DNA of 64,000 bases from NCBI GenBank assembly GCA_003280575.1, contig QCEN01000002.1, positions 62,001 through 126,000 on the forward strand. The letters are read 5' to 3'. Position numbers and translations under genes: made by a program. Positions 1,433 to 48,550 of this stretch are shown piece after piece (within the stretch, counting starts at the first letter, position 1; each line of letters starts with the position of its first letter). Under the pieces are notes generated by a model. That model worked only from the letters and a program-made list of their open reading frames with translations, made no database searches and was not told the DNA's origin. Source of the stretch: Prochlorococcus sp. AG-355-P07. Lineage in GTDB: Bacteria > Cyanobacteriota > Cyanobacteriia > PCC-6307 > Cyanobiaceae.

Positions 1433-3073
1433 ATGAGCTTAAAAAATTTTTCAGAATTATTTGTAGATTTAGATTCAAGTAACAGTACAAATAATAAAAT
1501 TGAAGTTTTAAAGAATTATTTTTTATCTAATGATCCAATAGAAAATTCATGGGCGATATATTTACTGACTGGGAAAAGTAATAAGAGATTTATTAGTGGA
1601 AGATATTTAAAAAATCTTTTTTGTCAAATATATGAATACCCTGAATGGTTAATTGACACATGTTATCTAAAAGTTGGTGATTCTGCTGAGGTAATAACCT
1701 TATTACTTAAAAATAAAAGTACTTCCAGAAAAAAGAAATTATCAAATATAAGTCTCAATGAATTACTAAGCAAAACAATCCCTGATTTATCAAAACTTAA
1801 GGAAGAGGAGAAAAATTTACAAATTAAAAATATTTGGGAAACATTACCTGAAGAAAACCATCTAATTTTCAATAAAATTCTTACAGGAACTTTTAGAGTA
1901 GGAGTTTCTATCGGATTAATCACAAAATCAATATCAAAACTAATTAATATTGATGAAGAGATTATTTCCCATAGGTTGATGGGCAATTTTGAACCTTCAA
2001 TTGATTCATATCAATTTTTAATTAACAAGAAAATCAATCTTCAAGAGTTAAATTCCAAACCATTTCCATTTCTTCTAGCCAATACTATTGAAGATAAAAT
2101 CTTCAAAAATTCAATAAATGATTTTCAATTTGAATGGAAATACGACGGTATAAGGATGCAATTAATTAAAAGATCAGGCAATGTTTCTTTATGGACAAGA
2201 GGGCAAGAATTAGTCAATGAATCTTTCCCAGAATTAGTAAAGAAAATGTCGAATATAAAAGATGACTTTGTCCTTGATGGGGAATTATTAGTTTGGAATT
2301 TTAAAGAACAAATTGCCCTTGATTTTTCTTTACTTCAAAAAAGAATAAATAGAAAGTCTCCTACAAGATCGATCCAAATAAAATATCCAATTATTTTTAT
2401 AGCTTATGATCTTTTAGAGATTAATGGGAGAGATATAAGAGAAATTAAATTAGAAAATAGAAGAATTGAGTTAGAAAAATATTTTTCAAAATGGCAAAAT
2501 AGGATTGAGAATAATATCTCTGATATTTTTAAAATATGTGATTTAATCTTTCCTAAAGATTGGCCTGATGCTTTAACTTATAAAGAAAAATCCCGAGAAA
2601 ATAATACTGAAGGATTAATCATTAAGAAAAAGACTTCTATATACTCCTCTGGTAGAAAAAAAGGTATTTGGTGGAAATATAAAGTTGATCCTATGCAACT
2701 GGATGCTGTTCTAATTTACGCTAAGGGCGGTAGCGGTAGAAGAGCTGGTCTATATACAGATTACAGTTTTGCATTATGGAAAGACCAAGAATTAATTAAA
2801 TTTGCAAGTGCATATTCTGGTTTAACGAATATTGAGATTAAAGAGTTAGATAAATGGATAAGGAAAAATACAATAGAAAAATTTGGTCCTGTTCGATCGT
2901 TAAAACCAGAAATGGTATTTGAAATATCTTTTGAGAAAATACAAATTTCTAAACGTCATAAGTCTGGCATAGCAGTAAGATTTCCAAGAATAACAAAATG
3001 GAGAAAAGATAAAAAAATCAACGATGCAGATAGCCTAGAGAATGCTTATAAACTGATGAAAAAAATATCATGA
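1433..3073 (+). CDS. ATP-dependent DNA ligase of the ligase-associated repair cassette
   Basis: 546 residues. An N-terminal helical DNA-binding region (about 1-200) is followed by the adenylation domain, with the nucleotidyl-transferase motif KYDGIR whose Lys236 should carry AMP. Other superfamily motifs are LDGELL (near 281), AYDLLE (near 325), EGLIIKK (near 390) and the WWKYK motif. An OB-fold C-terminal domain ends near 540. The length and two-domain layout match the bacterial ATP ligases encoded with an exonuclease, helicase and phosphoesterase (TIGR04120-like). It probably seals nicks or trimmed ends in repair, while an NAD ligase elsewhere should serve replication. Its last bases overlap the helicase start as ATGA, indicating translational coupling. 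Confidence 0.93.
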   Translation: MSLKNFSELFVDLDSSNSTNNKIEVLKNYFLSNDPIENSWAIYLLTGKSNKRFISGRYLKNLFCQIYEYPEWLIDTCYLKVGDSAEVITLLLKNKSTSRKKKLSNISLNELLSKTIPDLSKLKEEEKNLQIKNIWETLPEENHLIFNKILTGTFRVGVSIGLITKSISKLINIDEEIISHRLMGNFEPSIDSYQFLINKKINLQELNSKPFPFLLANTIEDKIFKNSINDFQFEWKYDGIRMQLIKRSGNVSLWTRGQELVNESFPELVKKMSNIKDDFVLDGELLVWNFKEQIALDFSLLQKRINRKSPTRSIQIKYPIIFIAYDLLEINGRDIREIKLENRRIELEKYFSKWQNRIENNISDIFKICDLIFPKDWPDALTYKEKSRENNTEGLIIKKKTSIYSSGRKKGIWWKYKVDPMQLDAVLIYAKGGSGRRAGLYTDYSFALWKDQELIKFASAYSGLTNIEIKELDKWIRKNTIEKFGPVRSLKPEMVFEISFEKIQISKRHKSGIAVRFPRITKWRKDKKINDADSLENAYKLMKKIS

Positions 3074-5556
3074 AAAATATAAGGCAAAATATTAAACCAA
3101 ATTATTTAATTTCTAAAATTAACCAGTTTTTCTTCTCAAATGGATGGAAGCCTTTACCATACCAAGTAGAGTCTTGGAAGGCATTTTTAAATGGGGAAAA
3201 CGGAATAATACAAGTTCCCACTGGATGCGGCAAAACATACGCTGCATTAATGGGACCTTTATCACAGATAGAAGATCCCAAAAATAATAAAAGTGTACAA
3301 ATATTATTAATAACGCCTTTAAAAGCACTAAGTAGAGATCTAAAAAATTCTATACAATTAGCAGCTTTACATTTTAATAAAGAAATCACTGTTGAAATTA
3401 GGAACGGGGATACAACCCCATATGAAAAGAAAAAGCAACTATCTAAACCACCTAATATTCTTATTACCACTCCAGAGTCATTATCTCTTTTACTTTCTAA
3501 TAAAGAATCTAATAATCTGTTCAAGGAGTTGTCATCAATAATTATTGACGAATGGCATGAAATGATGGGTAGTAAAAGAGGAAACCAGTGCGAGTTATCT
3601 TTAAGTTGGCTAAGAGGTAATATAAAAAATTTACAAATTTGGGCAATGTCTGCAACTATTGGAAATATTGAAGAAGCAGCAAGAGCAATAGTTGGGATGA
3701 GCGCTATTAAACCCAAAATTATAAGTACAAATATTCAAAAAGAGATAGAAATTATAAGCGTTTTACCAGAGGAGGAGACGACCTTTCCTTGGAGTGGCCA
3801 TCTAGGAATCAGAAGTCATTCTTCACTTTTAAAAATCCTAGATAAAAATAAAAGCACCTTATTATTCACCAATACAAGAAACCAATCTGAAAGATGGTAT
3901 CAGTGTCTTAAATTTTTTCTGCCAGAGATGGAAGACAAAATCGCACTTCATCACGGCTCCCTCGATAAGGAAGATAGAAAAAGAGTTGAAGAAGGGGTTA
4001 AAGACGGATTAATAAAATGGGTAGTCTGCACCAGCTCGTTAGATTTGGGAGTTGACTTCCAACCTGTAGATCAAATAGTTCAAATTGGTAGTGCAAAGAA
4101 TTTAGCTAGACTTATCCAAAGAGCGGGAAGAAGTGCTCATAGACCAGGTGGAAAATCAAAAATAATTTTTATGCCTACTAATTCTTTAGAGTTACTAGAG
4201 ATTAGTGCAATGAGAAGAATAATAAAAAGCGGTATATCTGAGGAAATTAGACTTCCTGAATTATCTTATGATGTGCTTCTACAACATCTAATAAGTTTGG
4301 CATGTGGAAATGGCTTTGATCCTAAAATTGAGAAAGAAAGAATTAAAAATTGCTGGAGTTATAGAAACTTAAAAGATCAAGATTGGAATTGGTGTCTTGA
4401 TTTTTTAGAATATGGAGGGAAATGCCTTAAAGCATACCCAAAATATAAAAAGATAGTTAAAGAAGAATCACAAAATAATAATGAAAACTTTAAATATTTT
4501 GTAAAAGACAAATCTTTAATAAGAATGCATAAATTCAATATTGGGACAATTACAAGTGACAAATTTGTGAATGTCAAATATATGAAAGGTAAATCTCTAG
4601 GTAATTTAGAGGAGAATTTTGTTTCAAAATTAAATCCCGGGGATACATTTTACTTTGCTGGCAAAATGCTTCAATTTGTAAGAATAAGAGATATGATTTT
4701 ATACGTCAAAAAATCAACAAAAAAAAGTTCTCTAATTCCTGCATGGGTTGGAGGTCAAATGGCAATTTCTGATCTACTTTGTGAGAGTTTGAGAAAAGAA
4801 ATAGATATATGCAACAAACTAGAAAATTATGATTGCTTAAATCCAGAACTCAATTCATTACGCCCAATATTGAAGAAACAAAAAGTTCTTTCAAATATTC
4901 CAAAGAAAGATGAATTCCTTATAGAAATATATAAAACCAAGGATTTATCAAATCTTTTTGTTTTTACACTTGATGGCAAATTTGTAAATGAAGGAATTGC
5001 ATTTTTATGGGCTTTAAGATTGGCAAAATTAAAACAATCTACATTTAGTATTACTGCTAATGATTTTGGATTCAGCTTAACTACCGCAGAAGATTATGAT
5101 TTTTCCATAATAAAAAAAGAAGCTGATTACTTTTTGAATAATAAGAAATTAGAAGAAGATCTAGAAAATGCAATTAATTTTTCAGAATTAACAAAACGTA
5201 GATTTAAAAATATTGCCCAAATAAGTGGACTAGTAAATCAAAATAATCCAACCAAAACAAAAACTTCTTCCCAACTTCAAATAAGTTCAAGTCTTTTCTA
5301 CGATGTCTTTACTAAATATGAAGAAGATCATCTTTTAATAAAACAATCGCATCAAGAAGTTAAAGAATATCAATTAGAAAATAAAAGAATATCTAGATCA
5401 TTAGAAAGATTAAAAAATTTAAAAATGCTACTAAACGAGATAGAAACTCCAACTCCTTTTGCTTTCCCTTTACTAGTTGAAAGACTTAAAAATACTTTAA
5501 GCAATGAGCCAATAGAAAAAAGAGTAGAAAAACTTATAAAAAAATATAGTGATTAA
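3070..5556 (+). CDS. DExH-box DNA helicase, ligase-associated (Lhr-core-like)
   Basis: 828 residues. Motif Q/I region with Walker A PTGCGKT near residues 50-56, Walker B DEWH at 160-163, SAT near 194 and motif VI QRAGRSAHR. It is a superfamily 2 helicase of the Lhr-core type (TIGR04121-like). The family translocates 3'-5' on single-stranded DNA and unwinds duplexes. The long C-terminal half (about 380-828) corresponds to the winged-helix and accessory domains. It overlaps the ligase by 4 bases and abuts the phosphoesterase with no gap, so the four products are likely made together. No frameshift or missing motif seen. Confidence 0.93.
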   Translation: MKNIRQNIKPNYLISKINQFFFSNGWKPLPYQVESWKAFLNGENGIIQVPTGCGKTYAALMGPLSQIEDPKNNKSVQILLITPLKALSRDLKNSIQLAALHFNKEITVEIRNGDTTPYEKKKQLSKPPNILITTPESLSLLLSNKESNNLFKELSSIIIDEWHEMMGSKRGNQCELSLSWLRGNIKNLQIWAMSATIGNIEEAARAIVGMSAIKPKIISTNIQKEIEIISVLPEEETTFPWSGHLGIRSHSSLLKILDKNKSTLLFTNTRNQSERWYQCLKFFLPEMEDKIALHHGSLDKEDRKRVEEGVKDGLIKWVVCTSSLDLGVDFQPVDQIVQIGSAKNLARLIQRAGRSAHRPGGKSKIIFMPTNSLELLEISAMRRIIKSGISEEIRLPELSYDVLLQHLISLACGNGFDPKIEKERIKNCWSYRNLKDQDWNWCLDFLEYGGKCLKAYPKYKKIVKEESQNNNENFKYFVKDKSLIRMHKFNIGTITSDKFVNVKYMKGKSLGNLEENFVSKLNPGDTFYFAGKMLQFVRIRDMILYVKKSTKKSSLIPAWVGGQMAISDLLCESLRKEIDICNKLENYDCLNPELNSLRPILKKQKVLSNIPKKDEFLIEIYKTKDLSNLFVFTLDGKFVNEGIAFLWALRLAKLKQSTFSITANDFGFSLTTAEDYDFSIIKKEADYFLNNKKLEEDLENAINFSELTKRRFKNIAQISGLVNQNNPTKTKTSSQLQISSSLFYDVFTKYEEDHLLIKQSHQEVKEYQLENKRISRSLERLKNLKMLLNEIETPTPFAFPLLVERLKNTLSNEPIEKRVEKLIKKYSD

Positions 5557-14129: not shown

Positions 14130-14713
14130 AATGTTTTTTTTCCTAGAACATTTTTTTGAATCCTTTTTTTCTTATGTCATTTTAAATTTTTAACTCATAC
14201 AAACCTATTTGATTAATCTTATGTTTGGGAAATATTGCCCTAGAGAAAACCGAATCAAGACTTAATTTAAACAGATAAGACATATTTTCAAAAATTCAAG
14301 TTTCCTTTTATTTTTCTTAACTTTATTTGTCAATTTGATACATCATAGAAAAATAAATTTTTAAATTAATTCTCAATACTAGTTTCTAGATAAAATCCTT
14401 TTTATAAATATAAAAGTAATGATCCCACAGTTATAACAATTGATTATGGTGCATCTTAAACTATATTTAAACTTTTCTTGATGAAGTATTAATACTTAAA
14501 AATTATTCGAATAAAGCTTGTTTTGAACATGCTCCCCGAGAGTTATCCACTTTTTTAGTGTTTTTCAACAGGGTTTTCCACAATATGTTGATTAATTTAA
14601 ATCTTCTATGTGAAAAATAAAACATTTTCTCTTTTTAAAAAAATATAGCCACATTTTGTTTTGATGATTAGTAGGATTTAATGTGTCATTTTTTTTAGAT
14701 TGATTTTGAATTT
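14130..14713. other. Long AT-rich gap with DnaA-box-like cluster
   Basis: No credible gene on either strand. The only notable content is the GC-richer patch at about 14528-14582 with three DnaA-box-like sequences, described separately. Confidence 0.5.
14543..14582 (+). promoter_or_regulatory. Cluster of three DnaA-box-like motifs
   Basis: TTATCCACT (14543), TTTTCAACA (14562) and TTTTCCACA (14574) lie in one orientation within 40 bases. TTATCCACA and TTTTCCACA are the E. coli and cyanobacterial DnaA-box consensus forms. No dnaA or dnaN is nearby. It could be a DnaA-binding regulatory or titration site, or chance in AT-rich DNA. Confidence 0.4.
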
Positions 14714-15513: not shown

Positions 15514-15603
15514 TTTTGATTTAACCTCAAAAAATTCTGTAGGTTTTAAGTAAATTAGTTTATCGAAACCCTTTAAAAGGTTGTAGCATGGTTAAAAACT
15601 AAT

Positions 15604-15831
15604 ATGCAATTACTGGGATTAATTCTTCTTCTAGCTAGTAGCTGGTATTTATGGAAATTGACATCAAACTTTCTTGATGAACCGACAAAGAAAGAGCTTA
15701 CAAATAATTTTAATAATCTCAAAAATAAATTCTCTAAGGGGAAACAAAACTTTTCTAAAGCAAAATTAAGTGAAGCTTGGGAAAAATACAAAGAAGAAGG
15801 TGGAGCCTTATCTAGTAAAGACAAAAGCTAG
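15604..15831 (+). CDS. Small membrane-anchored protein (first of four linked genes)
   Basis: 75 residues. An N-terminal helix (MQLLGLILLLASSWYLW) is followed by a charged, Lys-rich cytoplasmic-type tail with KLSEAWEKYKEEGG. The stop TAG shares its last base with the GTG start of the next gene. No family recognised. Confidence 0.6.
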   Translation: MQLLGLILLLASSWYLWKLTSNFLDEPTKKELTNNFNNLKNKFSKGKQNFSKAKLSEAWEKYKEEGGALSSKDKS

Positions 15832-16085: not shown

Positions 16086-16181
16086 ATGAACGTAACTTAC
16101 ATACTTTTAGTTTTTTTAATGTTCTCAATAGTGATTTTTACTCAAATAATAAATTCCTCCGACAAAAATCAGAATAAATGA
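16086..16181 (+). CDS. 31-residue single-span peptide
   Basis: ATG immediately after the preceding TAA. Residues VTYILLVFLMFSIVIFT form a membrane helix, then a polar tail. Its TGA overlaps the next ATG (ATGA). The chain of overlaps argues that it is translated. Confidence 0.5.
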   Translation: MNVTYILLVFLMFSIVIFTQIINSSDKNQNK

Positions 16182-16279
16182 CAGAAGTAACTAGCAACTC
16201 CTCAACTGGGTGGTATTTAATCGCTTTGGTAAGCACATTATCATTTTTGGCCTTAATTTATTTCGGCCAAAAAAGATAG
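16178..16279 (+). CDS. 33-residue single-span peptide
   Basis: ATG at 16178 overlaps the stop of the 31-residue gene. A polar N-terminus (TEVTSNSSTG) precedes one hydrophobic helix (WYLIALVSTLSFLALIYF) and GQKR. Last gene of the group; a hairpin terminator follows 35 bases later. Confidence 0.5.
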   Translation: MTEVTSNSSTGWYLIALVSTLSFLALIYFGQKR

Positions 16280-16313
16280 AATAAATTTTGAAAGACTATT
16301 TAAATTCATAAAA

Positions 16314-16348
16314 AAAAGCTCTGCAACAAAATGAGATGCAGAGCTTTT
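16314..16348 (+). terminator. Rho-independent terminator
   Basis: AAAAGCTCTGC (16314-16324) pairs exactly with GCAGAGCTTTT (16338-16348) around a 13-base loop. The A and T tracts make it usable in both directions, so it can end the four-gene group on the plus strand and the candidate small gene on the minus strand. Confidence 0.75.
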
Positions 16349-16400
16349 AATTATTAAGCAACTGATTTATATAAATCTATTGATTATAAAACCTTTTTTC

Positions 16401-16490
16401 TTAATCAAAGAAAAAGAGACCGATGAATGTGATGAAGATACTGAACTCACGGCCCCTTTGATAACCGCATTTTTCGGTAGATACGACAAT
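16401..16490 (-). CDS. Candidate 29-residue membrane peptide with ATT start behind a perfect Shine-Dalgarno
   Basis: From ATT at 16490 the frame reads IVVSTEKCGYQRGREF, then a hydrophobic SIFITFIGLFFFD and stop. Codons are unusually rich in TTC, ATC and GGT, as in very highly expressed photosystem genes of this genus. A TTG at 16489 opens another frame of 40 residues, down to 16367, with less typical codons. The strong ribosome-binding site six bases upstream says something is translated here. The reading frame choice is inference. Confidence 0.4.
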   Translation of the reverse strand: MVVSTEKCGYQRGREFSIFITFIGLFFFD

Positions 16491-16493
16491 GAA

Positions 16494-16504
16494 TCACCTC
16501 CTTT
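16494..16504 (-). promoter_or_regulatory. Exceptionally strong Shine-Dalgarno sequence
   Basis: On the minus strand AAAGGAGGTGA matches the anti-Shine-Dalgarno over 11 bases. Most genes in this window have weak or no such site. It ends 3 bases from the ATT and 4 bases from the TTG codon; the GGAGG core lies 6-7 bases from them. Confidence 0.6.
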
Positions 16505-16621
16505 ACTAATGTTTTTTTTAAGATAACCAAAAGAATGAAACAAGGAAAGAAATTCGTTAAAAATTTAAAAGTTTTTTAACAAATTAACGATATAAGTCTC
16601 TTAAAAATAAAAATATTGATA

Positions 16622-17287
16622 TTACCAAGGCAAGACTTCTCCGTTGGCATGCCAAAACGTACCTGAGTTATTTTTATTTAAAGAATCAATACGTTTTAAA
16701 AGGCCATTTGCTGATTCTTCAGGACTAATTCCATTTCTTGTAAAGCCAGTCATTCTTGTACATACTAACCCAGGATGCAAAATAGCTACATAAATATCAT
16801 CTCTTGATAAATCTATAGAAAGTGATTTTGCTGCCATTGACAAGGCTACCTTAGACATCCTGTAACCATAAGAACTTCCAGATGAATTATCTTCAATAGA
16901 TCCCATTCTACTTGTGATAAAAGCAACTTTAGAAGATCTTTTTAAAAGGTGTTTAAGTGATTGGGTCATACATATTGGGCTCAATGCATTAACTTCAAAT
17001 TGCCGCAAAATACTTCTTTTATCTAAGTTTTCGAAAGAATTAAATTCATAAATTCCTGCATTATGAATTAAGCAATCTAAATTAACTCCAGAAAGTTTTT
17101 TACACAAATTTGTTATCGACTCATCAGAAGAAATTTCTATATTCTCTTCGATTCTCACTCCTAAATCTCTAAGTTCTTTTGATGCTTTCCTACACGTTGC
17201 AATTACATTATCTCCCCTCTTATGAATTCGCCTACATAGTTCTAATCCAATACCCCTATTTGATCCTGTAATTAGATAAGTCGACAT
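16622..17287 (-). CDS. Short-chain dehydrogenase/reductase
   Basis: 221 residues. The N-terminal NAD(P) motif is TGSNRGIGLEL, then HNAGIYEF at the second Rossmann motif, and the catalytic YGYRMSK (Tyr-x-x-x-Lys type, YRMSK). It resembles the C-factor or sniffer-like branch of SDRs. Substrate unknown; cytosolic. The length is at the short end of the family but motifs are complete. Isolated on its strand. Confidence 0.9.
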   Translation of the reverse strand: MSTYLITGSNRGIGLELCRRIHKRGDNVIATCRKASKELRDLGVRIEENIEISSDESITNLCKKLSGVNLDCLIHNAGIYEFNSFENLDKRSILRQFEVNALSPICMTQSLKHLLKRSSKVAFITSRMGSIEDNSSGSSYGYRMSKVALSMAAKSLSIDLSRDDIYVAILHPGLVCTRMTGFTRNGISPEESANGLLKRIDSLNKNNSGTFWHANGEVLPW

Positions 17288-23701: not shown

Positions 23702-23886
23702 TGATAGGTAAAACCGGGTCCCCGTCAGTTCTCTGCTGCATCGACCTGGAAATGCCAGAAGAGGATTCAAAGTGGGCTTTCGTTTCCGATTACAAGATCG
23801 GTTTACTACCGCATCACGACAGTCTCCTCATGTCGAAAGAGAGTCAGATCAGAGCACATAAAGAAGAACTTAACCAAAGATCCAGT
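23702..23886 (-). ncRNA. ssrS: Probable 6S RNA
   Basis: A GC-richer, non-coding 150-185 base stretch next to the purK stop. It folds into one long interrupted hairpin: apex CCGAT/ATCGG at 23786-23801, then GTG/CAC, GAGGA/TCCTC, CGAC/GTCG, and an outer stem CTCTG/CAGAG at 23731-23735 and 23850-23854, with bulges on both sides resembling the 6S central bubble. Cyanobacterial 6S RNA is known to lie next to purK. It mimics an open promoter and binds RNA polymerase. Ends are approximate. I place it on the purK strand, as a downstream processed RNA; the fold alone does not decide the strand. Confidence 0.65.
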
Positions 23887-23908
23887 GATCTAACTCTAAC
23901 TTATTTTT

Positions 23909-34710: not shown

Positions 34711-35604
34711 ATGTTTAATTTAAAGAATTTCCTACTAAGTTCATCTCTATTATTTTCTATTTTTTCATCACCTGTATTTTCAAATCCCAAAGTTTTAAAA
34801 GTTGGAGCAATACCTGATCAAAACCAAGATGTTTTGGACAAAAGATTTAATTTATTTTCAAAAGAATTATCCAAACAACTAGATGTAGAAGTTCAATACA
34901 TTCCTGTTATTAATTATGTTGCAGCAGTAACTGGATTTAGAACTAGAGATTTAGATTTAGTTTGGTTTGGCGGTTTATCAGGAGTTCAAGCCAGACTACA
35001 AACTCCTAATTCAATTGTCATAGCTCAAAGAGATATCGATAAGGAATTTAAAAGTGTTTTTATAGTTAACAAAAATTTAGAACTTAATCCAATTTCAAAC
35101 ATTAAAGGACTTAAAAAACTAAAAAATTTGAGATTTACTTTTGGCTCTGAAAACTCAACTTCTGGAAGATTAATGCCAGAATATTTTTTGAATCGAGCAG
35201 GGGTAGAAATTAAAAACTTTAAAGGCAAAAAAGCAGGTTTTAGTGGGAGTCATGATGCCACTATAGCTTTAGTTAATAGTGGGGCATTTGATGCTGGAGC
35301 TTTAAATAAACAAGTTTGGGGAAACACTCTTAAAAATAATCCCAAAAGAACAAGTAATTCAGAATTATTCTGGATCACCCCAGAATATGTTGACTATCAT
35401 TGGATTGCTCAAGGGGATCTTGACAATAGATTCGGGGAAGGGTTTACAAACGAACTTAAATCAGTAATTCTAAATTTAGATATAAAGCAAAAATCACATA
35501 AACAGATATTAGATATGTTCAATGCAAAAAGATTTATAAGGGCAGAATCAAAACAATATAAAAATATAGAGGAAATCGGAAGGAAATTGAATAAAATTAG
35601 ATGA
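34711..35604 (+). CDS. phnD: Phosphonate/phosphite ABC transporter binding protein
   Basis: 297 residues from ATG 34711, where a signal peptide begins (FNLKNFLLSSSLLFSIFSS ending VFSN). Binding-protein features are VGAIPDQNQDVLDKR, FGSENSTSGRLMPEYF and GSHDATIALVNSGAFD. It delivers phosphonate or phosphite (related PhnD1 proteins prefer phosphite or methylphosphonate weakly) to the PhnC-PhnE importer. No phn lyase genes are in the window. Overlaps phnC by 4 bases. Confidence 0.93.
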   Translation: MFNLKNFLLSSSLLFSIFSSPVFSNPKVLKVGAIPDQNQDVLDKRFNLFSKELSKQLDVEVQYIPVINYVAAVTGFRTRDLDLVWFGGLSGVQARLQTPNSIVIAQRDIDKEFKSVFIVNKNLELNPISNIKGLKKLKNLRFTFGSENSTSGRLMPEYFLNRAGVEIKNFKGKKAGFSGSHDATIALVNSGAFDAGALNKQVWGNTLKNNPKRTSNSELFWITPEYVDYHWIAQGDLDNRFGEGFTNELKSVILNLDIKQKSHKQILDMFNAKRFIRAESKQYKNIEEIGRKLNKIR

Positions 35605-48263: not shown

Positions 48264-48491
48264 AAAACAATTTTTATAATCTTAAGAATTTTACATTTAA
48301 AAGTTCATTAAATAAAAAATACACCTCAAAAACGAACAAAATGTAACCTGTAAGCAATTATCTAGGGATAGTACATAAATATTTTTAGCAGAAAACTAAT
48401 CTGAAATTAATATATTAAGTTTATTTATTAAAGAGCTGGACAAATAATTTTCTTGGATGTTATTATAAATTTGTAGCAACCGCTACCAAAA

Positions 48492-48550
48492 CGTTCAACT
48501 TGCGTTTAGCAAGCCGCAAATCGACTTAAGCCATGGAACGGGGACTTAAG
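48492..48550 (+). promoter_or_regulatory. Glutamine-riboswitch-like pseudoknot (glnA/downstream-peptide type)
   Basis: P1 pairs CGTTC (48492-48496) with GAACG (48536-48540). P2 is the hairpin CTTGC/GCAAG (48499-48513), followed at once by CCGCAAAT. CTTAAG at 48525-48530 can pair with CTTAAG at 48545-48550 across the 3' strand of P1, giving the pseudoknot P3. Arrangement and spacing match the glnA and downstream-peptide RNAs, which bind glutamine. It ends 20 bases before the small peptide gene. A -10-like TATAAA lies at about 48466, so the RNA probably starts near 48474. Confidence 0.8.

Follow-up and report, generated by a model that had tools for sequence, protein, structure and literature searches.

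A short element on the minus strand of the window, by which we mean the whole stretch of 64,000 nucleotides that was analysed, was characterised by comparison with its relatives. We put the probability at roughly two in three that the element is a small stand-alone gene of Prochlorococcus, in which a translated small protein would be encoded by a short, structured mRNA whose start region resembles an sRNA, the whole probably having arisen by fusion of a front sRNA with an ORF. This reading, made at the level of sequence, is supported by the conservation of the frame, a terminator, a complement to the 16S tail and the modularity of the element. It is a conserved small gene absent from the family libraries searched; the first-pass annotation of this DNA had picked the right site but the wrong frame for its title.

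The TTG-initiated frame is conserved among relatives

Behind a strong Shine-Dalgarno (SD) sequence the first-pass annotation had recognised an ATT-initiated frame of 29 codons (16490-16401) and a TTG-initiated frame of 40 codons (16489-16367). Both are present:

16367..16489, minus strand: TTG-initiated ORF of 40 codons plus TAA, MSYLPKNAVIKGAVSSVSSSHSSVSFSLIKKKGFIINRFI, open in 70 of 70 aligned relatives
16401..16490, minus strand: ATT-initiated frame of 29 codons, rejected, relatives do not keep the frame

The cross-strain alignment that had been suggested as a check of frame conservation was carried out with 70 of the 148 matching genomes of the genus (the 30 best and 40 chosen lower in the ranking), excluding the short or weak matches G017, G018, G051, G073, G121 and G149. 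The TTG frame was kept in all 70 relatives, with 40 codons in 68 and 39 codons in two, and the two shorter rows go back to one in-frame 3-bp deletion. It ends with TAA in 66 relatives and with TAG in four, and GGAGGTGATTCATTG is kept in 70/70. The ATT frame comprised 29 codons in only 36 of the 70, 36 codons in 12 and no more than 7-11 codons in 18, others ending elsewhere. Thus, a peptide behind the SD sequence, as had been proposed, is well supported, but it is the TTG-initiated one of 40 residues and not the ATT-initiated one of 29 residues. That the ATT frame encodes a peptide, although it exists in the window and has its full length in those 36 relatives, is refuted by this frame loss for all practical purposes, and shifted frames show no synonymous bias at the C-terminal stretch.

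Nucleotide changes were evaluated in the 57 distinct rows of 40 codons. Almost all changes in codons 29-40 are synonymous (pN/pS 0.027), and the same C-terminal stretch gave pN/pS values of 24 and 4.8 in the two other frames. For codons 7-28 the ratio is 1.26, and codons 1-6 are nearly invariant (pS 0.0075, pN 0.0026). A kept frame together with a synonymous bias, as is characteristic of a conserved small gene, was found here, with the bias confined to the C-terminal 12 codons and none in the middle 22. These middle codons, which are not conserved as protein, count against the gene reading. Since the SD sequence and codons 1-6 barely vary even silently, the RNA appears to be constrained as well. 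According to this pattern, the back of the element is kept as protein and the front as nucleotide sequence, while the middle is strictly neither. As a separate observation, the last codons and the stop (TTT ATA TAR; window 16367-16375) are nearly fixed as DNA.

Distribution of the element

Within the window's genus, 148 of 200 genomes matched the 251-bp region of the element at E≤0.001, six of them by short or weak matches, and 60 of the 66 near-complete genomes of the genus carry the element. Named records bearing its start, among the matches listed, belong to Prochlorococcus and a few Synechococcaceae. A profile (A2) built from 11 members matched 73 of 300 genomes of the family at E≤1.5e-5, some of the matches being members of the model; these span 16 of 59 genera, and the next match follows at E=0.05. 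A 30-base degenerate pattern of the C-terminus with at most one mismatch was present in 71 of the 300 genomes, and its reversed control gave no match among the matches listed. No genome larger than 2.1 Mb (presumed Synechococcus/Cyanobium-type) occurred with a comparably strong match in the profile or pattern lists.

In genomes of other genera the element mostly comprises 33 codons (26 of the 29 different sequences; the others have 30, 32 and 35) and reads MS(Y/H)LPIGQESM...LKGFIINRFI, with several positions substituted. Its stop codon is TAG in 28/29. This 33-codon set was obtained by scanning 42 loci, from which duplicates, the chance matches L205 and L210, off-pattern loci (e.g. L321, L324) and L206, which contains only the front part, were left out.

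Eight genomes of the genus, 95-99% complete (G372, G002, G534, G151, G023, G118, G073, G103), gave no match to a covariance model of the front part, searched with strict filters and without a positive control from the window's genus. The SD-start pattern was also absent from these eight within two mismatches, and G073 showed only a weak DNA match (E 9e-5). Absence in these genomes, which counts against the gene reading, may reflect loss in a subclade or gaps.

The genes around the element vary from lineage to lineage, which argues for its independence of any one operon. Related amidotransferase-like ORFs (recognised by eye) lie on L342 (503-883, minus) near the form of G263 that has only the front part, and on L265 (4187-4915, minus) near the fused gene of the genome presumed to be MED4, hinting at orthologous positions of these two elements.

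The start codon is preceded by an extended Shine-Dalgarno sequence

The first-pass annotation had described 11 bases complementary to the 16S tail, AAAGGAGGTGA, as exceptional in the window. They are real, lie at 16494-16504 of the minus strand and form the sole exact copy within the 64-kb window; the 1.52-Mb genome holds three. The 16S gene of this genome ends with CTGGATCACCTCCTAACAGGG, to which point two relatives are identical. If the mature 16S end is assumed to be ...CCTCCTAA, the complement is AGGAGGTGATTCA, with 13 nt and one G-U pair, rather than AAAGGAGGTGA:

16490..16502, minus strand: extended SD sequence AGGAGGTGATTCA, complementary over 13 nt (one G-U) to the assumed 16S 3' tail

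The GGAGG motif is separated from the start codon by 7 nt (TGATTCA), and the remark that no AUG follows was correct. In 44 sequences the extended SD sequence lies inside 26 consecutive invariant columns extending into codon 4.

Pairing with CUGGAUCACCUCCUAA was predicted for 18-nt windows (step 2) on both strands of the 64 kb. The strongest pairing of all, -22.6 kcal/mol, was found at 16490-16502 of the minus strand, which bears out the word exceptional; the runner-up is located at 35365 of the minus strand (-22.4 kcal/mol). The SD regions of 65 mechanically listed ORFs (≥100 codons), a list containing spurious ORFs and wrong starts, were far weaker, with a mean of -3.0 and a best value of -6.6. 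Over the 64 kb, the minus strand held far more strongly pairing sites than the plus strand (46 versus three overlapping 18-nt windows at ≤-16), an excess which may stem from the coding strand or from composition. Another genomic copy of AAAGGAGGTGA directly precedes the ATG of a protein starting MTTLETLKWDGKKSGKVTLDL, which we take to be ribosomal protein L4; such sites thus serve as SD sequences in this organism. The likeness of the plus strand to the 16S 3' end, also noticed at first, is present but merely the reverse complement of the SD sequence.

The motif with up to two mismatches is not enriched within the window (25 observed, 21.2 expected), as would be the case if SD sequence and frame had arisen by chance. 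Nevertheless, site and frame are conserved across relatives, which refutes a chance origin almost completely.

RNA structure and transcription signals

Besides the reading frame, several putative RNA structures were located on the minus strand:

16464..16478, minus strand: small hairpin ACCG...CGGT in codons 4-9, 98.9% of cells paired, nearly invariant
16414..16458, minus strand: in-ORF hairpin AAGGGGCC...GGTCTCTT followed by a U-rich stretch, 97.4% of cells paired
16360..16381, minus strand: imperfect palindrome AATAGATTTATATAAATCAGTT around the stop codon, seen in the sequence
16311..16348, minus strand: intrinsic terminator AAAAGCTCTGCA...TGCAGAGCTTTTTTTT, from sequence and a consensus hairpin in the window's clade

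Structure counts for the window's clade are based on 44 of the 70 sequences (HL). The predicted terminator is well supported: in the 33-codon set nine of nine pairs carry two-sided changes (29 sequences). A simple terminator scan, which allows loops of 3-8 only, gave no hit at the element. The stop-codon hairpin is likely, as the 33-codon set has a longer hairpin at this position, with two-sided changes in three of ten pairs (29 sequences). The codon 4-9, in-ORF and other hairpins are plausible. The codon 4-9 hairpin is nearly invariant and for this reason yields no covariation evidence; the same applies to CCAUUG/CAAUGG, the hairpin at the start codon of the 33-codon form. For the in-ORF hairpin, percentage paired and covariation score exceeded all 500 shuffles (44 sequences), and the number of pairs with two-sided changes (one) was reached by 135 of 500. 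The changes observed in it are purine swaps opposite U in two pairs and AU-to-GC in three rows of one pair. A resemblance of the first hairpin to 16S helix 45, seen by eye in the window's clade, was dropped as a mimicry candidate because other clades lack it.

The stop codon region was also considered under the assumption of a leader peptide, on which ribosomes would stall at their own stop codon and act in cis. Conservation does run to the last residue, the final codon is ATA in 57 of 57 distinct rows of the window's set and in 28 of 29 of the 33-codon set, the other two C-terminal Ile codons vary in the window's set (one neighbouring Ile codon, ATT, is also fixed in the 33-codon set), and a hairpin encloses the stop codon. 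However, the terminator follows directly after the ORF. On the same strand, the first 1 kb downstream contains a single ORF of at least 60 codons (15573-15824), which appears spurious and overlaps ORFs of the plus strand, and downstream genes vary between lineages, so that a same-strand gene under such control was not found. A leader peptide is therefore very unlikely. An attenuator of a downstream gene was rejected likewise, as there is no consistent downstream gene.

A scan for sigma-70-like promoters on both strands of 16250-16650 found none, with 2.0 expected in shuffles; like the empty terminator scan, this speaks against the gene reading. In the 33-codon set (34 distinct sequences for this comparison) the last 10 nt upstream of the SD sequence have a mean column identity of 0.79, compared to 0.51-0.56 farther up. 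This rise just ahead of the SD sequence is the sole promoter indication and gives a hint only.

Small size, a basic C-terminus, a structured mRNA and a strong SD sequence would also suit a type I toxin, a small peptide restrained by structure or by an antisense RNA. Yet the promoter scan revealed no antisense gene between 16250 and 16650, the peptide appears by eye to lack a long hydrophobic stretch, and occurrence in 60 of 66 near-complete genomes is not the patchy pattern of a toxin; we regard this assignment as highly improbable.

The element consists of two separable modules

The C-terminal motif forms a module of its own:

16370..16396, minus strand: C-terminal motif KGFIINRFI, separable 3' module, identical in 11 chosen members

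In this motif, K, F and the first I are sometimes replaced among the 33-codon sequences. The back module occurs alone in four genomes (G305, G212, G224, G239) as a 26-codon ATG ORF ending KGFIINRFI-TAG, without the SD module. On L271 of G253 (2934-3224, plus strand) a 96-codon ORF ends KEFIINRFI and by eye resembles the start of the 169-codon ORF of L273, as if the C-terminal module had joined another gene.

The front module stands alone in five genomes (G224, G276, G263, G209, G300), the last but one and the last of which were two further clear cases from a search of 64 genomes with strict filters, selected because neither a fused gene nor a front module was clear in them; two marginal cases (E 0.009 and 0.046) were not counted. 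The covariance model used, built from 19 rows of front-only and 33-codon sequences without the window's clade, recovers the window's element at E=1.2e-8, a match to which the SD stretch contributes much. The front-only form consists of GGAGGUGAUCCAUUGU and a hairpin CAGGAGUCA...CUCCUG, followed by 6-8 U in four genomes and by UCUCUUUCU in G263. In the four genomes other than G263 the first in-frame stop lies 9-22 nt beyond the start of the U-run; a transcript terminated at this run would therefore lack a stop codon. In G263 (L328) the frame is shortened to 18 codons, and the SD stretch and the hairpin are retained. Judged by its letters, the front-only form resembles an sRNA of ~100 nt more than an mRNA. 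Conservation of the RNA part without the ORF, a mark of dual-function sRNAs, was thus found in the sequences of five front-only genomes, one of them with a shortened frame.

The in-ORF hairpin of the fused gene likely corresponds to the 3' hairpin found where the front module stands alone. Structural support from a mixed front-module set (A6) is weak: it contained two pairs with two-sided changes, compared to 1.7 in shuffles and reached by 295 of 500; shuffles reached its percentage paired in 4/500 and its covariation score in 15/500. Predicted net pairing with the 16S tail, after paying for the opening of the element's own structure, amounts to -17.5 to -18.6 kcal/mol for three fused forms and -20.2 to -22.6 kcal/mol for the five front-only forms.

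An RNA with mainly regulatory function, whose 5' end would pair with the 16S tail or another RNA and whose ORF would be secondary, accords with the solitary front modules, with the SD stretch and hairpin that stay in L328 despite a frame of only 18 codons, with U-runs starting ahead of the first stop in the other four genomes, and with the near-fixed silent sites of the SD sequence and codons 1-6. Nevertheless, constraint on RNA alone would lead one to expect neither a pN/pS of 0.027 in the last 12 codons nor 70 of 70 open frames, and the solitary back module retains the peptide end behind a different start. We judge this alternative to be unlikely.

G224 holds both modules separately, at C2:273777 and C2:241583, 32 kb apart. 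Fused and front-only genomes occur side by side in genera g11 and g39, which implies either repeated change or the loss of old copies. As to its direction, we infer fusion rather than splitting.

Proposed mechanism

On the reading as a small protein gene, transcription would start ~10-25 nt upstream of the SD sequence and yield a transcript of ~205 nt. The unusually long pairing would allow 30S subunits to load although UUG is a weak start codon. The product would be a basic protein of 40 residues. Its last nine, KGFIINRFI, would be the active part and probably form the end of an amphipathic helix that docks on a membrane or a conserved partner. AlphaFold predicted one helix (residues 6-38) with a mean pLDDT of only 61. 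The front half was probably once a free sRNA of ~100 nt. When this RNA was joined to a small ORF that had existed separately and encoded the C-terminal motif, the terminator hairpin of the RNA would have become part of the frame. With such an origin it would be understandable that conservation acts on the RNA in the front and on the protein in the back.

More tentatively, the front module may be a picocyanobacterial sRNA that pairs with the whole free 16S tail, parks or titrates 30S subunits and became fused to a micro-ORF in most Prochlorococcus; we consider this possible at best. With a tail ending in ...CCUCCUAA, the predicted pairing would be as long as 15 nt (UUAGGAGGUGAUCCA in L344). A ribosome-docking end would then have turned into the start site of a protein, and a terminator into codons. 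The proposed fusion of an sRNA with an ORF is the part a specialist would not expect.

Genomic surroundings

One flank of the element is formed by a dehydrogenase-like ORF and the other by small plus-strand ORFs. Known RNAs of the window were assigned by Rfam and mark the genome as Prochlorococcus-type:

16622-17287, minus strand: short-chain dehydrogenase-like ORF (named by eye)
14426-14684, minus strand: Yfr17 (Rfam)
23707-23891, minus strand: 6S RNA (Rfam)
48489-48550, plus strand: glutamine-II riboswitch (Rfam)

A 33-codon ATG ORF convergent with the element, MTEVTSNSSTGWYLIALVSTLSFLALIYFGQKR (16178-16279, plus strand), contains one hydrophobic stretch and by eye looks like a small membrane protein.

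Significance

Prochlorococcus ranks with the most abundant photosynthetic cells and with those best covered by sequencing. The gene is found in 148 of 200 genomes of the genus and has no Pfam, NCBIfam or Rfam model. With its TTG start and 40 codons it is a conserved small protein of the kind that gene finders tend to miss, and it offers a natural test of a very long SD pairing combined with a weak start codon. It also allows an sRNA-like module and a micro-ORF to be traced both apart and fused. If the proposed origin is true, a gene was born from the joining of an sRNA and a small ORF, both of which are still apart in G224.

Comparison with known families and systems

Rfam gave no gathering-level match at the element and, at E≤5, only sub-threshold matches, mostly over the 3' terminator part; membership in a Yfr or other Rfam family was rejected, as nothing credible appeared at either level. 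Pfam and NCBIfam, searched with single sequences at E≤10, gave no match. Two forms had no tblastn match in 50,697 phage records and a 26-base pattern had none in viral contigs, and a phage origin was discarded.

NblD is a small cyanobacterial protein. With it, and with AtpTheta and SliP4 as far as the available descriptions of these two go, the element has in common the small size and the short mRNA; these likenesses are by description only.

In the available parts of the literature, supplementary tables lying outside this scope, the peptide strings of the element and a description of the locus were not found. For the locus this holds for the available parts of PMC2518516 (the 113 short mRNAs of its supplement stood outside the comparison), PMC1242208, PMC3898218, PMC5607370, PMC10903887 and PMC7368042. 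Table 1 of PMC2518516, in the part available, contains no ncRNA at the element's place, the nearest being Yfr17 (664667-664930). Yfr6 and Yfr9, dual-function RNAs of Prochlorococcus with ORFs of 33 and 44 codons, likewise combine a short structured transcript with a small conserved ORF, and the available portions of their descriptions contain no complement of the 16S tail (PMC2518516, PMC1242208). Yfr6 is located elsewhere, at complement 627729-627972 in MED4, whereas the element lies at 661994-662130 on the plus strand of a genome presumed to be MED4.

Extended SD initiation in Staphylococcus aureus, as described in the available part of PMC13009471, likewise involves extensive pairing with the 16S tail. 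There it is presented as a trait of the species, whereas here it is an outlier among the ORFs of the window. In bifunctional sRNAs of the SgrS/SgrT type an sRNA and an ORF are carried on one transcript. The element would likewise combine an sRNA with an ORF in one transcript. RNAs of this type are mentioned in the available part of PMC2518516. Unlike in SgrS/SgrT, the sRNA-like part of the element is the 5' part and holds the start codon, and separate as well as fused versions exist.
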